In this document: positions 19,890 to 33,102 of the stretch, one piece after another
How the letters are laid out: the number at the start of each line of letters is the position of its first letter
Numbering within the stretch: position 1 is the stretch's first letter
Assembly (NCBI GenBank): GCA_029012425.1
Contig: JAQXMB010000095.1
Location: forward strand, 1-33,102
Source: a bacterium
GTDB lineage: Bacteria > Bacillota > Clostridia > Lachnospirales > Lachnospiraceae
Reading direction: 5' to 3'
Length of the DNA: 33,102 nucleotides
Program-made: the position numbers and the translations under genes
Notes under the pieces: generated by a model
The model's database searches: none
Told to the model about the DNA's origin: nothing
The model's input: only the letters and a program-made list of their open reading frames with translations

Positions 19890-19931
19890 GGAAGTGTATG
19901 AATGACAGAACGATGTTGGGAGGATAAAACG

Positions 19932-20783
19932 ATGCCTTTAGTTACTTCAGAACAGATGTTATCAGATGCACAAAAGGGCGGATATGCAATCGGAGCATTT
20001 AATGCTGAAAATATGGAAATGGTAAAAGCAATTATTCAGGCCGCAGAACAATTAAATGCTCCGGTTATGATTCAGACAACACCTTCAACGGTTAAATACG
20101 CATCGCTTGAGATGTTCGTTGCAATGGTTGCGGCAGAAGCAAAAAGTGCAACCGTTCCGGTATGCTTACATCTGGATCATGGCAGCAGCTTTGAACTTGC
20201 GGTGCAGGCGGTGAAGGAGGGCTATACCTCAATCATGATTGACGGTTCAAAGCTTCCGTTTGAGGAGAATGTTGAAGTCAGCAAACGGGTAGTGGCGGTT
20301 GCGAAACCGAACGGCATTCCGGTTGAGGCGGAGCTTGGTAAGGTTGGAGGAAAAGAGGATGACCTGGAAGCGGTAGCTGACACGAACACGGACCCGGCAG
20401 AGGCGAAAGCGTTTGTGGAACGCACCGGTATCAGCTCTCTGGCAGTTGCAATCGGAACTGCACATGGATTCTATGTGGGAACACCGGTACTTGATAAGGA
20501 GCGCTTGTCAGACATTCGAAAAGTGGTAGATATTCCATTGGTACTTCACGGTGCAAGCGGACTGACCGATGAGGATGTCATGGATTGTGTGAAGCGGGGA
20601 ATCTGCAAGGTGAATTTTGCGACAGAGCTTCGTGTTGCATACACGGATGCAGGGAAAAAGCTATTGAAAGATAAACCGGATACTTTTGATCCGAAAAAGC
20701 TCGGAGAGGTCGGAATGGCTGCGGTTACGGAACTTGTAAAGAACCGTATGAAGGTATGCGGATGTGACGGGAAGGCGAATTAA
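19932..20783 (+). CDS. Class II ketose-bisphosphate aldolase (fructose/tagatose-bisphosphate type)
   Basis: It is a zinc-dependent aldolase yielding dihydroxyacetone phosphate plus an aldehyde. Visible are AFNAENMEM near the N-terminus, the zinc and catalytic segment CLHLDHG, EAELGKVGG, the zinc histidines in GTAHGFY and LHGASGL, and NFATELR. At 283 residues it is close to GatY/KbaY and to fructose-bisphosphate aldolases. The position beside a LacI repressor, FGGY kinase and GatD-like dehydrogenase points to a dedicated catabolic substrate over glycolysis, but the exact sugar phosphate is not determinable. GGGAGGA seven bases upstream sets the start at 19932 over the upstream in-frame 19902. 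Confidence 0.9.
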   Translation: MPLVTSEQMLSDAQKGGYAIGAFNAENMEMVKAIIQAAEQLNAPVMIQTTPSTVKYASLEMFVAMVAAEAKSATVPVCLHLDHGSSFELAVQAVKEGYTSIMIDGSKLPFEENVEVSKRVVAVAKPNGIPVEAELGKVGGKEDDLEAVADTNTDPAEAKAFVERTGISSLAVAIGTAHGFYVGTPVLDKERLSDIRKVVDIPLVLHGASGLTDEDVMDCVKRGICKVNFATELRVAYTDAGKKLLKDKPDTFDPKKLGEVGMAAVTELVKNRMKVCGCDGKAN

Positions 20784-21796
20784 TGGCAGCAACGATCAAG
20801 GATATTGCCAATGCAACGGGACTGGGACTTGCGACCATATCCTCTTACCTAAACGGAGGGAATGTCCGGGAAAAGAATCGTGAAAAAATCGAGGCGGCGA
20901 TTAAGGAATTAAACTTTGAGGTAAATGAGGTCGCGCGCGGATTAAAGACAAAGCGGACGCACACCATTGGAGTTGTAATACCTGAGCTTAACAATATCTT
21001 CTGTACACAAATCATTACTGAGATGGAAGATATTTTGAGAAAAAAAGGATATGCAACGATAGTTTGTGATTGCAGAACGGACAAAATGCTGGAGCGCGAG
21101 GCTGTGGATTTCCTTTTTCGCAAGCGTGTGGATGGAATTATCAATATGCCTGTGGATTCGAGCGGCGCGCATTTGAAACAGTTTGCGTCGGAGAAGAAAC
21201 CGATTGTTGTCATCGACCGTTTGCTTCCGCAGCTTATCTGTGACAGCGTGCTTGTTGACAATCAAAAAGCCGCGCGGCAGGCAGTTGAAATATTACTGCA
21301 AAATGGACATCGGCGGATCGCAATTGTAACCGGACCGGAGGATATCTATACGGCCAAGGAGCGGTTACTCGGATACCGCGCTGCACTTGAGATGGCGGGA
21401 ATTGCTTATGATGAAACACTGGTTGTTCGAAGTGACTATACCATCAGTGGAGCAGTATGCGGTGTGGAGCAGCTACTTAAGGAGCGGCCGGATGTGACTG
21501 CAATTTTTGCGGCAAACTATGAAATGACGATGGGAACGATGATGGTACTGAGTGGCCGGGGAATCGCTATTCCGGATCAGATGTCGGTCATCGGATTTGA
21601 CAATAAGGAATTTGCAAGAGCACTGCATCCTGCACTTACGATTATTACCCAGCCGACGGAAGCAATTGCAAAGCAGGTTGCAGATATGATGCTTCAAAGA
21701 TTGGATGCTGCAGATGCATCGGAGCCGAAGAAGGTCTATTTGCAGACGGATGTTTTGGAAGGAAAATCAGTGAAGAATTTGAATGATGCAGGATGA
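20783..21796 (+). CDS. LacI-family transcriptional repressor
   Basis: The 337-residue protein begins ATIKDIANATGLGLATIS, the LacI helix-turn-helix. A hinge region follows around residues 48-60, then a periplasmic-binding-protein-like effector domain (IGVVIPELNNIF, then VDGIINMPVDS, VLVDNQKAARQAVE, MSVIGFDN). The start ATG shares its first base with the aldolase stop (TAATG), so translation is coupled. It is probably autoregulatory through the operator at 19868-19889. The effector is probably the sugar or sugar phosphate handled by this operon. Confidence 0.92.
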   Translation: MAATIKDIANATGLGLATISSYLNGGNVREKNREKIEAAIKELNFEVNEVARGLKTKRTHTIGVVIPELNNIFCTQIITEMEDILRKKGYATIVCDCRTDKMLEREAVDFLFRKRVDGIINMPVDSSGAHLKQFASEKKPIVVIDRLLPQLICDSVLVDNQKAARQAVEILLQNGHRRIAIVTGPEDIYTAKERLLGYRAALEMAGIAYDETLVVRSDYTISGAVCGVEQLLKERPDVTAIFAANYEMTMGTMMVLSGRGIAIPDQMSVIGFDNKEFARALHPALTIITQPTEAIAKQVADMMLQRLDAADASEPKKVYLQTDVLEGKSVKNLNDAG

Positions 21797-21861
21797 TTTT
21801 TTGCGGCGTATGGTTTGAATTGGGAGAACAACAGGGAATTGGATCCCGGGAAGGAGATCGT

Positions 21862-23340
21862 GTGGGGAAGTATTTATTAGGAATTGATATTGGTACAAGC
21901 GCATGCAAGGTAGCCTTATTTGAAGAAAACGGAGCAGTGACTGCACAGTCCAATCAGCCCTATCAGCTCTATTATCCGAATCCCGGATGGGTGGAGCAGG
22001 ATCCGGATGAATGGTGGCGTGCAATCTGTGAAGGAATAAAAGCAGTACTGGCGGAAAGCGGTATAGAGGCGGTGCAGATTGCGGGAATCGGAATTGATGG
22101 ACAAAGCTGGTCAGCAATTCCGGTCGACAAGGAAGGAAACTGTCTTTCAAGAACACCGATTTGGATGGATACCCGTGCAAGAGAAATCTGCGACAGAGTA
22201 AAAGCAGAGGTTGGTATTGAGAGAATTTTTGAGGTGGCAGGCAATGATTTCCTGCCCAGTTATACAACACCGAAGATGCTCTGGTTCAAGGAGCATAAGC
22301 CGGATATTTTTGCAAAAACAGATAAGTTTTTGCAGAGTAACAGCTACATTGTACGAAAGCTTACCGGTGTGATGAGTATGGATTATTCGCAAGGTTACGG
22401 GGTACATTTCTTCAACATGAGGGATTGTTCGTTGGATGAAACCCTTGCACAAGAGCTGGGGCTTTCCGTGGATTTGATTCCAAAGCTGTACGCCTGCCAT
22501 GAGGTGGTCGGCACTGTGACAGCAGAAGCGGCCGCATTGACAGGGCTTGCCGAGGGAACACCGGTGGTGGCAGGAGGGCTTGACGCAGCCTGCGGAACAC
22601 TGGGAGCCGGAGTTTACCAGCCCGGACAGACACAGGAGCAGGGTGGTCAGGCCGGCGGAATGAGTATCTGTGTGGATCATGCGCTGGCGCATCCGAAGCT
22701 GATACTTAGTCCCCATGTAGTTCCCGGTATGTGGCTGCTGCAGGGAGGAACGGTTGGCGGAGGAGGAACGCTTCGCTGGTTCAAACAGGAATTCGGTCAA
22801 GATCTTTCTTTTGACGAGTTGACCGCACTTGCAGAGAATATTCCTGCCGGAAGTGATGGAGTAACATTTCTTCCATACATGGCAGGGGAGCGTTCACCAA
22901 TTTGGAATCCGGATGCAAAAGGTGTATATTACGGGCTTGGTTTTGATAAGACAAAGGGTCATATGATCCGGGCAACGCTGGAGGGTGTTGCATACTCATT
23001 AGAGCATAATCTGCGCGTCGCGGCGGAAACCGGGGCAAAAGTGGATGAGCTGATTGCGATGGGCGGTGCGAGCAACAGTGTCGTGTGGACGCAGATTAAA
23101 GCGGATGTCACAGGAAAGACAATCAAAGTACCGACATCTGATACAGCAACCACGCTTGGCGCAGCAATTCTTGCCGGAGTTGGTGTGGGTGTGTATGAAA
23201 GCTTTGCGCAGGCAATTGCACAGACGATAGTGATTACCCGAGAGCAGAAACCGAATTGGGAAGCTCATGAACAATATAAAAAATCAATGGAGCTGTATCT
23301 GCAGCTATCGGATGCGCTGACTCCGGTATTTCACAGATAG
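21862..23340 (+). CDS. FGGY-family carbohydrate kinase (xylulokinase-like)
   Basis: The protein has 492 residues. The N-terminal phosphate-binding motif is GIDIGTSACKVALF, followed by GIGIDGQSWSA and the substrate-site segment TPIWMDTRA. The second nucleotide-binding block (GGTVGGGGTLRWF) and the adenosine motif GGASNSVVWTQIKADVTGK are in the C-terminal half. It is closest in form to xylulokinases. The frame opens at 21793, but AAGGAG at 21851-21856 points to the GTG at 21862, which gives the normal family N-terminus. The true sugar may differ from xylulose given the aldolase and GatD-like partner. Confidence 0.9.
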   Translation: MGKYLLGIDIGTSACKVALFEENGAVTAQSNQPYQLYYPNPGWVEQDPDEWWRAICEGIKAVLAESGIEAVQIAGIGIDGQSWSAIPVDKEGNCLSRTPIWMDTRAREICDRVKAEVGIERIFEVAGNDFLPSYTTPKMLWFKEHKPDIFAKTDKFLQSNSYIVRKLTGVMSMDYSQGYGVHFFNMRDCSLDETLAQELGLSVDLIPKLYACHEVVGTVTAEAAALTGLAEGTPVVAGGLDAACGTLGAGVYQPGQTQEQGGQAGGMSICVDHALAHPKLILSPHVVPGMWLLQGGTVGGGGTLRWFKQEFGQDLSFDELTALAENIPAGSDGVTFLPYMAGERSPIWNPDAKGVYYGLGFDKTKGHMIRATLEGVAYSLEHNLRVAAETGAKVDELIAMGGASNSVVWTQIKADVTGKTIKVPTSDTATTLGAAILAGVGVGVYESFAQAIAQTIVITREQKPNWEAHEQYKKSMELYLQLSDALTPVFHR

Positions 23341-23373
23341 CAAACAAAAACTATAGAAAGAAGGAAACAAAGC

Positions 23374-24429
23374 ATGATGATGAAAGCAGGCGTTGTTCAC
23401 GGTGTGAAGGACATTCGCTATGAGGATATTGAAAAGCCTGTGCCGAAGGCCGGTGAGGTATTAATCAAGGTAAAGTATACCGGAATCTGCGGCTCTGATT
23501 TACCGCGTGTGAACGAGGGTACCGCACACTACACACCAATTGTACTTGGACATGAGTTTTCCGGTACTGTCGAGGCGGTTGGAGAGGGTGTTACGAATGT
23601 AACACCGGGGGATCGCGTTGCCGGAATCCCGCTCGTCCCGTGTATGAAATGTGAGGATTGTCAAAAGGGTAATTACTCGCTGTGCAAGCACTATGATTTT
23701 ATCGGTTCACATTCCTTTGGAAGCTATGCGCAGTATGTATGTGTTCCGGAGAAGAATGCTGTGAAATTTGGAGAATCGGTAAGCTTTGAGCAGGGCGCAT
23801 TTTTCGAGCCTGCTACAGTTGCACTTCACGGATTGGAGCGCACCGATTATAAAGGTGGCAAGACCGTAGCAATTCTTGGCGGTGGAACGATTGGAATGCT
23901 TACCATGCAATGGGCGAAAATCTTTGGTGCAAAGAAAGTTGTTGTCTTCGATATCGTGGATGAGCGTCTGGAGCTTGGAAAAAGACTTGGCGCAACCGCA
24001 GGAATCAATACTTCAAAAGAAAGCTTCATGGATGAAGCAATGGCAATGACAGACGGCAAGGGCTTTGATTATGTGTTTGAGACAGCCGGAAATGTCATCA
24101 CAATGAAGATGGCATTTCAGCTCGCGGCGAACAAGGCACAGGTATGTTTCATCGGTACGCCCACCAGAGAACTTAGCTTTTCTGTTGCGGAGTGGGAACA
24201 GATGAATCGCAAAGAGTTTACACTGACCGGATCGTGGATGAGTTATTCTGCACCGTTCCCCGGACATGAGTGGGAGCTTGTTGCTCACTATTTTGGAACC
24301 GGAGAACTGAAGTTTGATGAGTCCTTCATCTTTGAAAAGATTGGTCTTAGCAAGATCGACACAGCATTTGCCAAGTTTTTAACCCCGGGAGCTGTAAAGG
24401 GAAAAATCCTGATTGACAGTGAAGCATAA
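23374..24429 (+). CDS. Zinc-dependent polyol dehydrogenase, GatD-like (galactitol-1-phosphate 5-dehydrogenase family)
   Basis: The 351-residue medium-chain dehydrogenase has a catalytic zinc site (CGSDLP and GHEFSG), a structural zinc loop with four cysteines (CMKCEDCQKGNYSLC), and a GGGTIG nucleotide-binding loop. CGSDLPR, YDFIGS and a GSWM(S)YSAPFPGHEWE block resemble E. coli GatD closely, from memory of that protein. It would oxidise a polyol or polyol phosphate to a ketose using NAD+. It has no gatABC or gatZ neighbours. AAGGAAA precedes three consecutive ATG codons; I used the first. Confidence 0.88.
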   Translation: MMMKAGVVHGVKDIRYEDIEKPVPKAGEVLIKVKYTGICGSDLPRVNEGTAHYTPIVLGHEFSGTVEAVGEGVTNVTPGDRVAGIPLVPCMKCEDCQKGNYSLCKHYDFIGSHSFGSYAQYVCVPEKNAVKFGESVSFEQGAFFEPATVALHGLERTDYKGGKTVAILGGGTIGMLTMQWAKIFGAKKVVVFDIVDERLELGKRLGATAGINTSKESFMDEAMAMTDGKGFDYVFETAGNVITMKMAFQLAANKAQVCFIGTPTRELSFSVAEWEQMNRKEFTLTGSWMSYSAPFPGHEWELVAHYFGTGELKFDESFIFEKIGLSKIDTAFAKFLTPGAVKGKILIDSEA

Positions 24430-24537
24430 CCGTTGAGAAGCGTATCATTTACCGGAGCTACTTCAGAAAACCTGATAGAAAACCCGGATGGAAACCACAG
24501 AACATAATAATAACATAATAAAAGGAGGATTATTACT

Positions 24538-25566
24538 ATGACAGCAGTGAATCCGGCAAATGTGCCGAAGATAAAACTGAACAATGGCAAGGAAGTGCCC
24601 TGTATGGGTATGGGAACCTTCGGTTCCGACCGTTTTACCCCTGAGCAGGTAAGCAATGCCGTATACGGAGCAATCAAATCGGGCTACCGTATGTTTGACT
24701 GTGCAGCCTGCTACGGAAACGAGGATCAGATTGGAGAGGTATTTCAGAAAGCGTTTGCAGATGGTCTTTGCAAGCGGGAGGATCTCTACATCATGACCAA
24801 GGTATGGAATGACATGCATGGAAAGGGAGATGTATTAGTTGCACTTTCAAAGAGCTTAAGAGACTTACAGCTTGACTATGTAGATATGTATTTTGTCCAC
24901 TGGCCGTTCCCGAACTATCATGCACCGGGATGTGATGTGGATGCAAGAAATCCTGATTCAAAGCCGTTTTCCGTTGAACGATTTATGACTACATGGAGAC
25001 AGATGGAGCGTCTTGTTGATATGGGTCTTGTAAAAGAGATTGGTATGTCGAATATGACCATTCCAAAGCTTGAGGCAGTGCTTCCGCTTTGCAGGATCAA
25101 GCCTGCAATGTGCGAGATGGAGTTACATCCCTGCTTCCAGCAGCAGGAGTTATTTGATTATCTGGTTGCACACGAGATTCAGCCGGTAGGATTTATGCCG
25201 CTTGGATCACCCCAGAGACCGGAACGCGATATGATGCCTGAGGATATCGCGGATATGATGCTTCCCGAGATGAAGGAGATTGCACAGGCACATAATTGTC
25301 ATCCGGCAGTCATCTGCTTAAAATGGGCAGTGCAAAGAGGCCAGATTCCGATTCCGTTCTCCGTACATGAGATGGAGTATGAGAGCAACATCAACAGCAC
25401 CTGCGACAAAGATCCGCTGACTGACGAAGAGATGGCTAAGATTGCAACCTTAGAGAAGAACAACCGTCTGGTAAAAGGACAGGTATTCCTCTGGGAAGGT
25501 GCAGATGACTGGCATGATCTCTGGGACGAGGATGGATATATTGTTGACTGTCCGGATGCAAAATAA
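24538..25566 (+). CDS. Aldo/keto reductase
   Basis: The protein has 342 residues and a TIM-barrel fold. The catalytic tetrad is visible: Asp in MFDCA, Tyr in CYGNEDQIG, Lys in MTKVWN and His in FVHWPFP. The N-terminus KLNNGKEVPCMGMGTFG and the C-terminal PIPFSVHEMEYESN are family hallmarks. It reduces or oxidises a sugar carbonyl or polyol with NAD(P)(H). AAAGGAGG lies upstream in a 108-bp gap that shows no terminator or strong promoter, so it probably belongs to the same operon. Possible substrates are the entry polyol or aldehyde of the pathway. Confidence 0.92.
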   Translation: MTAVNPANVPKIKLNNGKEVPCMGMGTFGSDRFTPEQVSNAVYGAIKSGYRMFDCAACYGNEDQIGEVFQKAFADGLCKREDLYIMTKVWNDMHGKGDVLVALSKSLRDLQLDYVDMYFVHWPFPNYHAPGCDVDARNPDSKPFSVERFMTTWRQMERLVDMGLVKEIGMSNMTIPKLEAVLPLCRIKPAMCEMELHPCFQQQELFDYLVAHEIQPVGFMPLGSPQRPERDMMPEDIADMMLPEMKEIAQAHNCHPAVICLKWAVQRGQIPIPFSVHEMEYESNINSTCDKDPLTDEEMAKIATLEKNNRLVKGQVFLWEGADDWHDLWDEDGYIVDCPDAK

Positions 25567-26514: not shown

Positions 26515-27232
26515 AAGTAGATAGGTTTCTATTCAGAATAAGAAAGATGAAGCGATAAGATGTCCGGAGTTATCAGGACAGGGGACTTATGCAAAAGCTT
26601 GGCTCCGAGAAGATGATGAATTGTATTTGCATAAGGCAGGAAATAATGGAGTTACGGAATCAAAAATAGAAGTAATGGTTTCGAACCTATTAGATAATTG
26701 CAATGTAAAGCATTTAAAGTATGAGGCATCTGAAGCGTTTGGCATTTATACTTGTAAGTGCAAATGCATGACTGATGATAATATTAGCATATTACCGGGA
26801 ATGGACTTTGATGGATATTGTAACAGATTAGGTAAAGATTCAAGGCGGGAAGCTCTACGCATAGATTCTGAGATGATTTACAAAATGATGATTGTAGACT
26901 ATTTAATTGCAAATCCGGATCGACATGGCATGAACTGGGGATTTTTCTATAATTGTGATACTATGGAAATTCTTGGATGTCATCCTTTATATGATCATAA
27001 TAATGCTTTTGATATTGAATATATGCGTGATCCGGATGTACGATATTTGTATGATGAATCTCGCAGTATGGAAGATTGGGCCAAGTATGCTATGAGCGAA
27101 GTAGATTTCCACTTTTATCGAGAGTTTGTGCGGGAAGATTTTATGACTGATAGGCAATACAAGGAGTTTATGCGCAGAGCTAAAACGATCGGCGTGAGAG
27201 TGGAGCAGAGCTTAGTAAGTTCGGTGTTTTAG
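26508..27232 (+). pseudogene. HipA-like serine/threonine kinase, interrupted by a one-base frame change
   Basis: From the ATG at 26508 the frame reads MLEVDRFLFRIRK and stops at 26556-26558. A second frame, open from 26525 to 27232, reads on as DEAIRCPELSGQG and into a HipA-type kinase core. The core has the ATP-binding Lys in LHKAG, a Glu in SKIE, the catalytic loop NPDRHGMNWGF (DRHxxN) and the metal site in PLYDHNNAF. Joining the frames needs one extra base, or a -1 slip, near 26538-26546. The joined protein would be about 240 residues and lacks the N-subdomain-1 of full-length HipA. The only intact start in the long frame is a TTG at 26621 without a ribosome binding site, and it falls too late. 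The gene overlaps the unknown protein upstream; no HipB-type HTH gene is adjacent. Confidence 0.7.
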
Positions 27233-27596: not shown

Positions 27597-30107
27597 ATGC
27601 AGGAACAGGAAAAACAAAGGATGGTACATCTGTTAATATTACTCGTTTACACGATTGGAACAGTCGTACTGTCTGGTGAAGCAATTCTGCTTAATTGGGA
27701 TAAAGGTGCTGTAGTTTTGCTTTTTATCGGTGTTATTGTCTGCTGGATCATACATATCATGAATACGATATCGGAAGAGGTAAGGCTTTGGCTGTATATT
27801 ACACTGATTATGCTGGAATTCTTTTTCTACGGAATACATGAAACAAGTATATTTGACATGGCACCATTAATGATTGTCATCATGATTTTGTTTTCTGTTA
27901 CCGAAAAATACAGCGTTGTCCGTTATTGTATGGGCACATTTTATCTGACCCTGCTATATGATTTTATTTTTGTGATAGATAGAAATGAGGCGTTATCATC
28001 AGTTGTAATAACGAGAAGTGTGCTTCATGTAATATTAGTCTTTGTCGCAGGTAAGCTTGTCCGAATGGAAATGCAACGACGCAGTGATGAGAGAAAAGAA
28101 AGTGCGGAAAAGATTGCAAAATTAGAGGAGATAAATGGAAGAACAGAGGATTTTCTGACAAATGTCTCGCATGAGCTTCGAACTCCAATCAATGCGGTTA
28201 CAGGTATTACAACCGTGATGCTCAACAACGAAGAAGACAAGAAAAAGCGAAGAGACCTGATGTCTATTCAGACTGCGGGACAGCGTCTTTTCAGGCAGAT
28301 TGGCGATATTTTAGATTATACGGAATTAGATACTTCAAGGATGATCGTAAGTGAAGAACCATATATGATTACATCTTTGATCAATGACCTTATTGTTGAT
28401 AATCGACTTTCGGGAAGAAATCGTGCACTGGAAGTGATTTTTGATATTGATGCCCAAATTCCATATGTTTTATTGGGAGATGCCCAAAAAATAAAAAAGA
28501 TCTTATCGCATCTGATTGACAATGCCTACAAGTTTACAAAAAAAGGTGGCATGTATATCCGGGTAAACGCCTTAAGAAAAACATATGGAATCAATCTGTG
28601 TATACAGGTCAGTGATACCGGAATCGGAATGACACCGGAGGAAGTGAAAAAAATACGAACACAGTTCTACCAGTCGAATGCAGGAAGAAGTCGTCAGGCA
28701 GGCGGTCTGGGTTTGGGACTTTCGATTGTATATGGTATGGTTTCTGCCATGGAAGGTTTCCTTCAGATAGAAAGTACTGCGGGAAAGGGAACGACAGTAT
28801 CCGTTAGTATTCCGCAGAAGATTTCTGATAACACGGCGTGTATGTTCGTCGAGAACAGGCAGAATTTATGTCTGGCGTGCTATCTGAAGCCCGAGAAATA
28901 TGAGGTTCCGGAGATTCGACAATTCTATGATCAGATGATCGCTAATTTGGTGGAAGGAATTGATGTACCTTTACATAGAGCAAATAACATCAGTGAATTG
29001 AAGCATTTAGAATCACGGTATCAACTTACGCATTTATTCCTTGGAAAAGAAGAATATGAGGAAAATGGAGCATATCTTGAAGCATTGAGTCGGCAGGTAA
29101 ATATTATTGTTATTGCCGATGATTCATTTTCATTACCCAAGTCAAGCGGCGTAAAGCTTATGAGAAAACCGTTCTATAGTCTGCCGATTGTTAATATGCT
29201 CGGGTTAGGAAGAGAGCAGGAAGATGAGGTATTTAAAGATAAATATATGATTTGTCCCGGGGTTCGCGTACTGGTTGTAGATGATGAACCAATGAATTTA
29301 CTTGTTGCGAAAGGCGTGTTCAGGGATTATCAGATGGAGGTTACGACAGCAGATAGTGGAAGAAAAGCAATTGAAATATGCAGAACGCAGGATTTTGATC
29401 TGATATTTATGGATCATATGATGCCAGAGATGGATGGCGTGGAGACATTGAAGGTACTTCGGAAAAATAATGCCGCATTGGGTGTGACATGCAGTGTGAT
29501 CGCATTCACGGCAAATGCGGTTAGCGGTGCCAGAGAAATGTTTCTTCAGGAAGGTTTTGATGAGTTTATTTCGAAACCAATCGAAACTATGGCTATGGAG
29601 AGAATCCTTCGCAAGGTGTTGCCCAAATCATCCATACAGTATGTAGATAAACATATCCATGTAGCGGATGATGAAGCAGATGACGGTGTGGAGATTGAAG
29701 AGAAACAGGAGGAGAAACAGGATCCGTTGAGTTTGCTGAAAGAATTTGGAATTGATACGGGACTTGGCATTTCGTATTGCATGGATGAGCGCTTTTACAT
29801 AGAAATGCTACAGAAATTTGCGGATGATGCGCCAGAAAAAAGGAAGGCAATTGTTGATGCCTATGAAGGTGCTGATTGGGAAAAATATGCTATTTTTGTA
29901 CATGCCCTTAAGAGTACCTCCAAGATGGTAGGAATTCTTACCTTGTCAGAAAAAGCCCGGGATATGGAGACTGCATCAAAACAAAGGGATATCGAATATG
30001 TAAATGCCCACCACCAGTCTCTGATAAATGATTATCAATTGGTAGCAGATAAAATCAATGAAGTATTAAAACAGGCACAGGATGTGAAAGGTGGTGAGAA
30101 TATATGA
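27597..30107 (+). CDS. Hybrid sensor histidine kinase with pseudo-receiver, receiver and C-terminal HPt
   Basis: The protein has 836 residues. About six membrane spans occupy residues 9-153 with very short loops, so it has no large outer sensor domain. A coiled segment (155-185) leads to HisKA with the phospho-histidine His192 in SHELRTP. The HATPase_c domain has N-box DNAYKF (about 308-313), DTGIGM (340-345) and GLGLGLSIV (370-378). Residues about 410-540 look like a degenerate receiver: it keeps the VxLMRKPF end but lacks a phosphoacceptor Asp. A true receiver follows (about 555-675) with Asp562/563, acceptor Asp606 in FMDHMMPEMDG and Lys660. The C-terminal HPt has His769 in FVHALKSTSKMVG. 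AAGGAGAG precedes the ATG. The gene overlaps the next kinase by 4 bp (ATGA). It has no DNA-binding output. Confidence 0.93.
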   Translation: MQEQEKQRMVHLLILLVYTIGTVVLSGEAILLNWDKGAVVLLFIGVIVCWIIHIMNTISEEVRLWLYITLIMLEFFFYGIHETSIFDMAPLMIVIMILFSVTEKYSVVRYCMGTFYLTLLYDFIFVIDRNEALSSVVITRSVLHVILVFVAGKLVRMEMQRRSDERKESAEKIAKLEEINGRTEDFLTNVSHELRTPINAVTGITTVMLNNEEDKKKRRDLMSIQTAGQRLFRQIGDILDYTELDTSRMIVSEEPYMITSLINDLIVDNRLSGRNRALEVIFDIDAQIPYVLLGDAQKIKKILSHLIDNAYKFTKKGGMYIRVNALRKTYGINLCIQVSDTGIGMTPEEVKKIRTQFYQSNAGRSRQAGGLGLGLSIVYGMVSAMEGFLQIESTAGKGTTVSVSIPQKISDNTACMFVENRQNLCLACYLKPEKYEVPEIRQFYDQMIANLVEGIDVPLHRANNISELKHLESRYQLTHLFLGKEEYEENGAYLEALSRQVNIIVIADDSFSLPKSSGVKLMRKPFYSLPIVNMLGLGREQEDEVFKDKYMICPGVRVLVVDDEPMNLLVAKGVFRDYQMEVTTADSGRKAIEICRTQDFDLIFMDHMMPEMDGVETLKVLRKNNAALGVTCSVIAFTANAVSGAREMFLQEGFDEFISKPIETMAMERILRKVLPKSSIQYVDKHIHVADDEADDGVEIEEKQEEKQDPLSLLKEFGIDTGLGISYCMDERFYIEMLQKFADDAPEKRKAIVDAYEGADWEKYAIFVHALKSTSKMVGILTLSEKARDMETASKQRDIEYVNAHHQSLINDYQLVADKINEVLKQAQDVKGGENI

Positions 30108-32773
30108 ATCCGGGAAAAATAATTGAAATGATCAAAGATCAAAATCGTAGCCGTCAGGAGCGAATGTTCATCCTTCTTGCAATGTGCGGTCAGATGGGTT
30201 TGTTTATTGGCACCTTAGTGAAGGCAATTGTGGGAGTGAACATGAAGAATGTACTTGCCATGTTGATTTCGTTTGTCATATTGCTTGGAATAACATATTT
30301 TTCACTCAGATTTCGAAAAATACAAAGAGGTGCAGAGCTAATTGCCGCGCTTGTCATTTTCTTTGTTTTGCCGCTTAATTTCATTTCCGGAGGGGGCATT
30401 TATGGAGGCGCCACCATCTGGTTTATTTTTGGTATCATTTTTGTGTGCCTGGTAGTTGAGAATAAAACAAAATATATCCTTCTGGCAAGTGGATTTTTCG
30501 TATGCTCGATATGTTATTTTATTGCGCTTTTTTTCCCGGAATGGGTGGTTACACCTCCGAAGAGTATCGCATATGTGGACTCATTTTCAACGTTTGTACT
30601 TGTAACAGGAATGATCTGTGGAATGATTCTGTTTCAAAATGCAATCTATCAGTCCGAGAATAAAATGACACAGGCACAGAAGAAGGAAATTGAAGAACTC
30701 AATCAGATGCAAAACAGATTCTTCTCCAGCATGAGTCACGAAATCAGAACTCCGATCAACACAATCATCGGATTAAATGAAATGATACTCAGAGAAGATG
30801 TATCGGATGAGGTCGCTTCAGATGCGAGAAGTATTCAGGGTGCAAGTAAAATGCTTCTGACACTGATCAATGACATTCTTGACATGTCAAAAATTGAATC
30901 CGGAAATATGGATATTGTGCCGGTTTCCTATGATTTTGGGGCGATGCTGTCGGATATCGTAAATATGATCTGGGTGCGTGCCAAAGAAAAGGGTCTGGAA
31001 TTCCATGTGAATGTAGACCAGACCATGCCGTCTCAATTATATGGAGATGAAGTGAGAATTAAGCAAGTGCTGATTAATGTCCTGAACAATGCCGTGAAAT
31101 ATACGGCAGAGGGTTCGGTTACATTATCGATTCAGTGTAAGAATTCGGAAAATGGAAAAGCGCAGATCATTTATTCGATTGAAGATACAGGAATGGGAAT
31201 CAAAAAGGAAAGTATTCCATTTCTGTTTACAGCATTTCGTCGTGTTGATCAAGCAAAAAATCGATACATTGAAGGAACCGGTTTGGGTCTTTCGATTGTA
31301 AAACAATTGGTGGACCTTATGCATGGCGAAATAGCTGTAAACAGTGTATACACAAAGGGTTCTACATTTGTCATTACGATTCCGCAGGATGTTGTCGGCA
31401 ATGATGTAATTGGAGCAATCAATCTGGAAGAACGGCATTCCATGAATGCGAGAGCTCATTATAAACAAAGCTTTGAAGCGCCGAATGCAAGGGTTCTGAT
31501 TGTTGATGACAATGAAGCGAATCTAATGGTTGCGGAGAAGCTTTTGCGTGATACCAAGGTAATGATTGATACAGCAACGAGTGGAGAAAAGTGTTTGGAA
31601 AAAACGGTCAGTTTCCATTATGATGTGATATTTATGGATCATTTAATGCCCGAGATGAGCGGAATAGAATGTCTGCATGAGGTTCGTAAGCAGACAGGAG
31701 GTCTGAATCAAAACACACCGGTTGTTGCACTCACGGCAAATGCAGGAAGTGAAAATCAGGCACTTTATCGAAGAGAGGGCTTTGACGGCTATCTTTTGAA
31801 GCCTGTAAGCGGATTACAGTTGGAAGCAGAACTGTTAAGACAGCTGCCACCGGAGCTGGTTGAGAAAACGAGAGATACAGAACAGACAGGAGTCGCAGCA
31901 CCGGTTCTGGAGCATCATAATAAGATGTTTGTGATGATTTCGACAGATAGTGTGTGTGATTTGCCCAAAAATATCACGGAAAAATATCAAGTCGCTGTTA
32001 TGCCGTATCGTGTAATTACAGAGGGAGGAGAATTTTTAGACGGCATTGAGACGGAAACGGATGGTATTGTATCTTACATTGAGGAAAAAGGTAAGACTGT
32101 GAAATCAGAAGCACCTCCGGTTGAGGAATATGAGAAATTCTTTGCGGAACAACTGACGAAGGCACAGGTTGTTATTCATATCTCTATGGCGAAAAAGATT
32201 AGTCTGGGATATGATAATGCAAGAGAAGCAGCAAAAGCATTTGATAATGTATTTGTAATTAATTCCAGACATCTTTCTTGCGGTATGGGAATATTGGTAA
32301 TTCGTGCGGCAGAATATGCGGCGGAGGGAATGAAAGCAGAACAGATTATTCAGAAGATAAAAGCGCAGAGAAAACTGGTGAAAACAAGCTTTATTGTAGA
32401 TAAAACAGATTTTCTTGCACGGGTTGGCAGAATTTCTGCGAAAATAGACTCGATCTGCAAGGCAATTATGCTGCATCCGGTAATTGTTTTGAAAAATAGT
32501 CTGCTAACGGTAGGAGCAATTCGAATCGGAACAAAAAAGCATGTCTGGGATAAATACATTGAAGCTGAGATGAAGACAATGAAATATGCGGACAAGAAAC
32601 ATTTGTTTATTGTCTTCGTGGGACTTTCTATGCAGGATTTACAGGAAATCAAACAAAAGGTCGAAAGCAAGTATTCGTTTGACCAAGTAATATTTCAAAA
32701 ATCATCTCCCGCCATCTCTGCTAATTGCGGACCGGGTACCTTTGGTTTGATATATAGCATAAAAGAAGAGTAA
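30104..32773 (+). CDS. Hybrid sensor histidine kinase-receiver fused to a C-terminal DegV domain
   Basis: The protein has 889 residues. About six membrane spans lie in residues 20-180. HisKA follows with His212 in SHEIRTPIN, then HATPase_c with NNAVKYT (about 328-334), DTGMGI (361-366) and GTGLGLSIV (391-399). The receiver (about 462-580) has Asp468/469, acceptor Asp512 in FMDHLMPEMSG and Lys566. After a short linker, residues about 607-889 form a full-length DegV (EDD-fold, fatty-acid-binding) domain: STDSVCDLP, a SEAPPVEEY segment in place of TSqPs, ISMAKKISLGYDNA in place of the SGTY block, and the closing NCGPGTFGLIY. The open frame is unbroken through the fusion point. Coupled by 4-bp overlap to the preceding kinase. 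DegV proteins bind fatty acids and, as FakB, present them to FakA kinase; here the domain could sense lipid or be the relay output. Confidence 0.92.
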   Translation: MNPGKIIEMIKDQNRSRQERMFILLAMCGQMGLFIGTLVKAIVGVNMKNVLAMLISFVILLGITYFSLRFRKIQRGAELIAALVIFFVLPLNFISGGGIYGGATIWFIFGIIFVCLVVENKTKYILLASGFFVCSICYFIALFFPEWVVTPPKSIAYVDSFSTFVLVTGMICGMILFQNAIYQSENKMTQAQKKEIEELNQMQNRFFSSMSHEIRTPINTIIGLNEMILREDVSDEVASDARSIQGASKMLLTLINDILDMSKIESGNMDIVPVSYDFGAMLSDIVNMIWVRAKEKGLEFHVNVDQTMPSQLYGDEVRIKQVLINVLNNAVKYTAEGSVTLSIQCKNSENGKAQIIYSIEDTGMGIKKESIPFLFTAFRRVDQAKNRYIEGTGLGLSIVKQLVDLMHGEIAVNSVYTKGSTFVITIPQDVVGNDVIGAINLEERHSMNARAHYKQSFEAPNARVLIVDDNEANLMVAEKLLRDTKVMIDTATSGEKCLEKTVSFHYDVIFMDHLMPEMSGIECLHEVRKQTGGLNQNTPVVALTANAGSENQALYRREGFDGYLLKPVSGLQLEAELLRQLPPELVEKTRDTEQTGVAAPVLEHHNKMFVMISTDSVCDLPKNITEKYQVAVMPYRVITEGGEFLDGIETETDGIVSYIEEKGKTVKSEAPPVEEYEKFFAEQLTKAQVVIHISMAKKISLGYDNAREAAKAFDNVFVINSRHLSCGMGILVIRAAEYAAEGMKAEQIIQKIKAQRKLVKTSFIVDKTDFLARVGRISAKIDSICKAIMLHPVIVLKNSLLTVGAIRIGTKKHVWDKYIEAEMKTMKYADKKHLFIVFVGLSMQDLQEIKQKVESKYSFDQVIFQKSSPAISANCGPGTFGLIYSIKEE

Positions 32774-32841: not shown

Positions 32842-33102
32842 ATGAAAAAATGGATAAAACGAATTGGAGCAGTAATTTGCATAATCGTCCTGATCATTTT
32901 GGTTCGTTATTGTATAATGAGCAGACTTTATGCGAGAATGACCTTTATCGGCCATGCAAGTGTGAAGATTAAAACAACTACAGGAAAAGTCATTTATATT
33001 GATCCGTATTTCCCGACAAAGTTTTCCTATAGAGAGCCGGCAGATTTTATTTTGGTCACTCATGGGCACAGTGATCATAACAACATGAGCTTGTGCACAC
33101 AA
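32842..33102 (+). CDS. Membrane-anchored metallo-beta-lactamase-fold hydrolase (3' partial)
   Basis: The frame runs from the ATG at 32842 to the window edge, 87 codons without a stop. Residues 7-24 form an N-terminal hydrophobic anchor or signal segment after the basic MKKWIKR. Then come MTFIGHASVKIKT, YIDPYF and THGHSDHN, which is the HxHxDH metal-binding motif of UlaG-like MBL-fold hydrolases. The rest of the active site lies outside the window. A weak AGGAT precedes the ATG. It starts 68 bp after the kinase-DegV gene with no terminator between, so it may share that transcript. The substrate is unknown. Confidence 0.85.
   Translation, partial: MKKWIKRIGAVICIIVLIILVRYCIMSRLYARMTFIGHASVKIKTTTGKVIYIDPYFPTKFSYREPADFILVTHGHSDHNNMSLCTQ

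Follow-up and report, generated by a model that had tools for sequence, protein, structure and literature searches.

A membrane hybrid histidine kinase of Lachnospiraceae ending in a remodelled DegV domain: a candidate lipid-responsive co-kinase of a phosphorelay

Proteins of the DegV/FakB family generally stand alone, and the locus described here raises the question of what such a domain does at the end of a histidine kinase. The locus lies on contig JAQXMB010000095.1 of the Lachnospiraceae assembly GCA_029012425.1, of which positions 1 to 33,102 of the forward strand were analysed; this whole stretch of 33,102 nucleotides (nt) is referred to as the window. The gene at 30104–32773 encodes a protein of 889 amino acids (aa) in which a histidine kinase (HK), a receiver (REC) and a DegV domain are joined, and it directly follows a gene for a second kinase that carries a receiver and an Hpt domain. 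With confidence slightly better than even, we read the fusion protein as a lipid-responsive co-kinase of a phosphorelay, in which the DegV part would be a built-in lipid sensor tuning the kinase and not a carrier serving FakA.

A first-pass annotation of the stretch had described an uninterrupted frame joining membrane spans, HisKA, HATPase_c, a receiver and a full-length DegV domain at about residues 607–889, and each of these parts was recovered by open reading frame (ORF), hydropathy and Pfam analysis. The Pfam search of the 889-aa protein gave HisKA at residues 203–267 (E = 1.2e-18), HATPase_c at residues 314–428 (E = 3.2e-26), Response_reg at residues 464–575 (E = 5e-21) and DegV (PF02645) at residues 612–885, the last covering profile positions 4–278 of 280 with E = 1.5e-45 and 156 bits against a cut-off of 27, while no Hpt match was returned for this protein. 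The NCBIfam model TIGR00762 scored 172 bits against its cut-off of 99.7, and the fused domain was placed in the DegV fold. The phospho-acceptor His212 is His in 74 of 80 named related sequences, the remaining six being gapped at that column, and Asp512 is Asp in 78, with two gapped; these two residues, the ATP-binding boxes, Asp468/469, Thr544 and Lys566 are all present and near-invariant among relatives. Its sequence marks the product as a hybrid histidine kinase of the membrane, with its catalytic motifs intact and a C-terminal domain matching the DegV/FakB family.

Hydropathy maxima at about residues 32, 54, 88, 108, 138 and 172 point to some six spans ahead of the kinase, and helices were modelled at residues 17–43, 47–69, 73–95, 103–117, 121–143 and 153–229. 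These helices come from a low-confidence full-length structure model (predicted local distance difference test, pLDDT, 68.3; predicted template modelling score, pTM, 0.39), in which the placement of the DegV part relative to the kinase was too poor to use, so that only the helix positions and the low confidence of the linker were taken from it. The least conserved segment was residues 577–608 (mean pairwise identity 0.42). The DegV part, with a mean pairwise identity of 0.57 among 63 sequences, is better conserved than the membrane part (0.45), which argues that it is under constraint.

To find relatives, the DegV part alone was used as query, limited to proteins of like total length at E ≤ 1e-3. 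This returned 558 homologues, and all 120 of those listed (query included) contain DegV, HATPase_c and Response_reg, with HisKA also present in 117. Named bacterial genomes yielded 472 related stretches, and in each of the 80 best of these loci DegV lies in frame after an upstream extension of 95–665 residues. BLAST detected the receiver in 79 of 79 and the kinase in 76 of 79 scored focal genes (L045 was not scored); of the three genes lacking a kinase match, two are truncated at a contig end and one has a split frame. The first-pass annotation was right that DegV proteins in general stand alone, but this fusion forms a well-established family of proteins and is not peculiar to one genome.

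A count of genomes carrying the architecture, proposed in the first-pass annotation, gave matches reaching the end of the DegV domain in 34 of 200 sampled genomes of the family (46 places, the window's own genome included), in 11 of 295 genomes of the order (ten within the window's family, one in another family) and in 3 of 398 genomes of the phylum, all within the window's family; since only 2–4 candidates were scored per genome, these counts are lower bounds. Presence is patchy: the one further species sampled from the window's genus, 98% complete, gave no full-length match. The depositors' record titles of the 80 loci read Lachnospiraceae (44), Acetatifactor (10), Clostridia/Clostridiales/Clostridiaceae (9), Ruminiclostridium (5), Eubacterium/Eubacteriaceae (4), Roseburia (2), Oscillospiraceae (2), Thermoflexaceae (1), Bacteroides (1) and only 'bacterium' (2). 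Almost all carriers of the fusion belong to a single family, which the titles mostly give as Lachnospiraceae. The record titled 'uncultured Bacteroides sp.' (L032, CAMECH010000028.1) carries the locus, and its title is probably a mislabel.

In a tree of 21 of the 81 fused and 40 standalone DegV domains, the fused domains fell on one side of a branch with support of 100/100 and a stem of 1.61 changes per column, a topology that fits a single origin of the fused domains. The standalone domain nearest to the fused clade, with weak support (87/63), is encoded in the window's own genome (L001:1501-2340, G000:C172); it retains the His of the HCGPGT motif yet already has its Cys.

The residues of the fused domain were compared with those of Staphylococcus aureus FakB1. 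In the portions of PMC8892158 and PMC9136124 drawn on here, Thr62, Ser95, Ser171 and His270 of FakB1 are described as holding the fatty acid carboxylate, Arg173 as covering the ligand and being needed for catalysis, and Arg205 as needed for FakA and membrane binding; Arg173 and Arg205 are stated there to be completely conserved in FakB. The alignment comprised 80 fused domains and, as standalone controls, 35 DegV domains (30 of the order and five of the window's genome), with residues mapped by MAFFT. The order controls were score-ranked from DegV loci found by a Pfam search of 56 genomes and thus lean to canonical proteins. Numbering follows a FakB1 chain that is the A121I mutant, and position 121 was therefore left out. 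Because the 80 loci were chosen with a search alignment built around the window's own subfamily, the counts below describe the nearer family.

The basic residues linked to docking were found to be lost throughout. Of the 35 standalone domains, 34 have Arg at position 205, whereas none of the 80 fused ones does; in these the column holds Ile (32), Met (28), Val (11), Phe (4), Ala (3), Leu (1) or Ser (1), the window protein having Ile808. Lys203 is Lys in 33 of 35 standalone domains and Ile, Val, Leu or Met in 80/80 fused domains. Position 177, on the membrane-inserting helix of FakB1, is Lys or Arg in 65/80 fused domains versus 0/35 standalone ones. The absence of Arg205 reaches the deeper members of the family, with Arg205 in 0 of 19 loci, a set that includes deeper members and partly overlaps the best 80.

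The pocket is altered as well. His270 is His in 33/35 standalone domains and in only 3/80 fused ones, where Asn stands in 77 (0/35 standalone); Leu165 is Leu in 34/35 versus 0/80, with Thr in 78/80 fused and 0/35 standalone domains; Ser63, beside Thr62, is Glu in 62/80 versus 0/35; and Ala158 is Thr in 79/80 versus 3/35. The first-pass annotation had noted that GAH before GPG is replaced by SAN and that the SGTY block is altered, and both observations hold: residues 872–878 read S-A-N-C-G-P-G, the substitutions being family-wide, and residues 700–703 read S-L-G-Y. Its suggestion that ligand preference may differ from that of FakB gains support from Asn270, Thr165 and Glu63, each of which is absent from the standalone set. 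At the mouth of the pocket, the latch Arg173 (Arg776) is retained in 78/80 fused and 35/35 standalone domains, Ser95 in 75/80 and 35/35, respectively, and Thr62 is Ser in 79/80 fused domains. Within the carboxylate network of the window protein, the hydroxyls of Ser668 and Ser700 are thus kept but Asn874 replaces His270. The Ser171 equivalent is Val774 in the window protein and Ser in 56/80 relatives; as it is Gly in 34/35 controls, it does not define the family. Docking residues lost, with a pocket mouth reshaped yet kept, form the pattern expected of a carrier turned sensor.

FakA itself is common in the family, FakA-type C-terminal domains being found in 194 of 200 genomes, and the window's genome encodes a full-length FakA-like protein of 563 aa with Dak2 and FakA_C matches (contig C59) along with five other DegV proteins that retain Arg205. 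One genome, G180, estimated as 100% complete, gave neither a FakA_C nor a Dak2 match; its sole DegV match is the fused one, with no standalone DegV match there. The locus of this genome (L148, G180:C5:163000-180000) retains the DegV kinase and a partner kinase. Given the loss of Arg205, the strictness of the signature and the persistence of the fusion in a genome without detectable FakA, the fused domain is probably not a FakA carrier.

Beyond what the first-pass annotation had recorded, the family-wide substitutions are accompanied by a partner gene for a kinase-receiver-Hpt protein directly upstream. In the window, the last four nt of the partner gene, ATGA, are the first four of the fusion gene, a 4-nt overlap, and GGTGG lies 9 nt ahead of the fusion gene start. 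A scan found one promoter-like site before the partner gene, with 1.3 expected by chance, and no terminator-like site there. After removal of 9 of the 80 loci as 90% duplicates, 71 were kept for neighbourhood counts, and a kinase-receiver-Hpt gene with a like N-terminus was present directly upstream in 53 of 60 non-redundant loci with at least 2.9 kilobases (kb) of upstream sequence. Among the seven without a strict partner call, L043 and L085 have no adjoining Hpt kinase gene called, L050 has the Hpt kinase but a fusion gene with a split-off start, L052 and L058 have a second DegV kinase intervening, and L054 and L100 have the partner beyond the 150-nt rule. L052 and L058 carry tandem DegV kinases, two behind a single Hpt kinase. 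Where a partner, whole or contig-cut, directly precedes, the genes overlap by 4 nt in 40 and by 1 nt in 9 of 57 loci, starts having been assigned mechanically. By this arrangement, the fusion gene is the second half of a conserved gene pair.

Beyond the partner, a receiver-HD-GYP gene was found in 36 of 54 loci with at least 4.5 kb upstream. The neighbouring proteins carry the HD motif (36/36), HHE (36/36) and GYP (35/36), and a loose receiver-Asp pattern matched 27/36. HD-GYP genes occupy 42 of 123 places at the first two upstream positions versus 3 of 528 elsewhere in the same loci, which implies that the linkage is specific. Downstream, a family-3 solute-binding protein is encoded in 26 of 65 loci, followed by a receiver-GGDEF gene in 7 and a chemotaxis-receptor-like gene in 5.

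These observations can be joined in one scheme. A lipid-like ligand would bind the remodelled DegV pocket and shift the kinase/phosphatase balance of the fusion protein. As the fusion has a receiver and no Hpt match and its coupled partner has an Hpt domain, phosphotransfer between the two is the economical reading, and phosphate would move between the fusion's receiver and the partner's Hpt. In relatives with an adjoining receiver-HD-GYP gene, the output would be the breakdown of cyclic di-GMP (c-di-GMP). A wider account, which we regard as doubtful, is that a hybrid kinase of Lachnospiraceae took in a FakB-type carrier on a single occasion; the carrier would then have lost FakA and membrane docking and become the lipid receptor of a two-kinase c-di-GMP relay, a Bacillota counterpart, from different parts, of RpfC/RpfG fatty-acid signalling.

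Several observations weigh against the sensor scheme. No receiver-HD-GYP gene stands beside the pair in the window, and the closest HD-GYP regulator in the assembly lies elsewhere with its domains in the opposite order; since the assembly is about 88% complete and the HD-GYP gene does not adjoin, the c-di-GMP step for the window's organism is drawn from its relatives. By the rule used, 12 of the 54 long-flank relatives have the pair without HD-GYP. In G180 the DegV part has diverged (31% identity), and the assembly has a stretch of N within the fusion gene. Of the 19 loci that include deeper members, 13 retain the latch Arg. Finally, the pocket changes (Glu63, Thr165, Thr158 and Asn270) could mean that the domain binds something other than a fatty acid, perhaps a molecule of greater polarity than an ordinary long-chain fatty acid, or that it binds nothing. 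The reversed regulator, HD-GYP followed by receiver (L115:4548-5534, G000:C150), adjoins another hybrid kinase in the window's genome.

One rival proposal is that the DegV part no longer binds lipid and is either a folded adapter contacting a partner, for example the neighbouring kinase, or a binder of a small polar ligand. Positions 63, 165 and 270 are unlike those of standalone domains, two of them changed towards Thr or Glu, deeper members lose further residues, and regulators occur in the wider fold, the dihydroxyacetone kinase operon co-activator being among the fold matches. Ser668, Ser700 and Arg776, at the pocket mouth by their FakB1 equivalents, are nevertheless held in 79, 75 and 78 of 80 relatives; a mere adapter would not need them, and we regard this proposal as fairly unlikely.

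The first-pass annotation had offered two options, that phosphorylation gates lipid binding or that bound lipid tunes the kinase. Under the former, DegV would be the output, with phosphorylation of the receiver opening or closing the lipid pocket and the kinase controlling lipid capture or release. The domain does sit directly behind the receiver, the usual site of output domains, the linker is predicted to be flexible and the latch Arg is widely retained. As the Arg needed for FakA and membrane binding in FakB1 is absent from each of the 80 fused domains and position 177 on the membrane-inserting helix is mostly charged, delivery to FakA or to the bilayer in the known way is unlikely, and we judge DegV as output improbable. 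With the docking residue gone, the helix changed and the fusion present in G180, tuning of the kinase by lipid appears to fit better than gating.

It was further considered whether the fusion is a tethered FakB handing fatty acids to FakA at the membrane, which the full-length FakA-like protein of the window's genome would allow. This is very improbable and was rejected as the main explanation, given the loss of Arg205 and Lys203 in 80/80 and the change of His270 in 77/80 fused domains, the fusion of G180 without detectable FakA, and the Arg205 kept by the five other DegV proteins of the window's own genome. An assembly error or a chance one-off fusion, conceivable in a fragmented assembly of 172 contigs and 88% completeness, has a negligible probability and was ruled out by the recurrence of the join in 120/120 listed proteins and 80/80 named loci from many assemblies and by a tree that fits one origin.

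FakB1 of S. aureus is a standalone protein, whereas the window domain is fused to a kinase, with Arg205 and Lys203 replaced, His270 changed to Asn, Leu165 changed to Thr and the face of the membrane helix altered; the protein is a member of both the DegV family and the hybrid kinases, and at Arg205 and His270 it departs from FakB. In NCBIfam, the kinase and receiver regions are matched best by BarA/TorS/LuxQ-type hybrid histidine kinases, with scores far short of the curated cut-offs, and no best stretch shown extends past residue 608 into DegV. In the excerpted text of PMC5391125, RpfC/RpfG of Xanthomonas is a kinase for a fatty-acid signal, the diffusible signal factor (DSF), with an HD-GYP phosphodiesterase, and RpfC binds DSF via a 22-residue N-terminal sensor region. 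Like RpfC, the neighbour at 27597–30107 is a hybrid kinase with a hydrophobic input part, a receiver and Hpt, and a receiver-HD-GYP regulator adjoins in many relatives. Unlike in RpfC/RpfG, a second kinase here bears a DegV domain. The window has no adjoining HD-GYP gene, and on that ground naming the pair an RpfC/RpfG system was rejected. The pair may work like RpfC/RpfG, an analogy that claims no membership by sequence. In S. aureus, according to the part of PMC5539427 used here, the intracellular free fatty acid pool can inhibit the SaeRS two-component system, with involvement of fatty acid kinase; that link appears indirect, whereas here a FakB-type domain lies inside the kinase itself. 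Searches of full-text literature under Creative Commons (CC) licences, subscription papers lying outside them, listed no paper on a kinase-DegV fusion or on such a receptor.

If the sensor reading holds, bacteria that by titles are mostly Lachnospiraceae gain a defined receptor for lipids, be these dietary, from the host or their own, one linked to a phosphorelay and, for many relatives, to c-di-GMP as well. It would also show a route from metabolic carrier to sensor, with docking residues lost and the pocket reshaped. The substitutions make the sensor idea directly testable and are a warning not to take the fusion proteins for ordinary DegV proteins, although several database records label them 'DegV family protein'.

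Table 1. Features of the gene pair and of the fused DegV domain in the window (nucleotide positions; residue equivalents refer to FakB1).
Feature	Position	Strand	Basis
HK-REC-DegV fusion gene, ATG start, uninterrupted frame, 889 aa	30104..32773	+	ORF, Pfam, homologues
Input region crossing the membrane, about 6 helices, residues 17-176	30152..30631	+	Hydropathy and low-confidence full-length model
HisKA domain, phospho-acceptor His212 (codon 30737-30739)	30710..30904	+	Pfam, family alignment
HATPase_c domain, N, G1 and G2 boxes	31043..31387	+	Pfam, motif check
Receiver domain, phospho-acceptor Asp512 (codon 31637-31639)	31493..31828	+	Pfam, family alignment
Receiver-DegV linker, predicted flexible, residues 587-605	31862..31918	+	Model pLDDT <50, low conservation
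DegV/FakB-type domain, residues 612-885	31937..32758	+	Pfam
Ser668, Thr62 equivalent, carboxylate network, hydroxyl retained	32105..32107	+	Alignment
Ser700, Ser95 equivalent, carboxylate network, retained	32201..32203	+	Alignment
Arg776, Arg173 equivalent, latch, retained	32429..32431	+	Alignment
Ile806-Arg807-Ile808, Lys203 and Arg205 equivalents both Ile, docking basic residues lost	32519..32527	+	Alignment
Asn874-Cys875, His270-Leu271 equivalents, family signature NCGPG	32723..32728	+	Alignment
Partner gene, HK-receiver-Hpt, hydrophobic N-terminal part, 836 aa	27597..30107	+	Domain search; conserved arrangement

Around the pair, a short frame at 26621–27232 (203 aa) with weak similarity to HipA_C, below the curated cut-off, lies upstream and stands where the receiver-HD-GYP gene is found in many relatives. 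At 32842–33102, 68 nt past the fusion gene, lies the start of a gene cut by the contig end; its product has a hydrophobic N-terminal segment and matches Lactamase_B_3 (E = 6e-10), and BLAST found it no relative among the genes of the 80 named loci. Farther upstream, positions 19902–25566 hold a sugar-type cluster with a class II aldolase, a LacI-type regulator, an FGGY kinase, a zinc alcohol dehydrogenase and an aldo-keto reductase.

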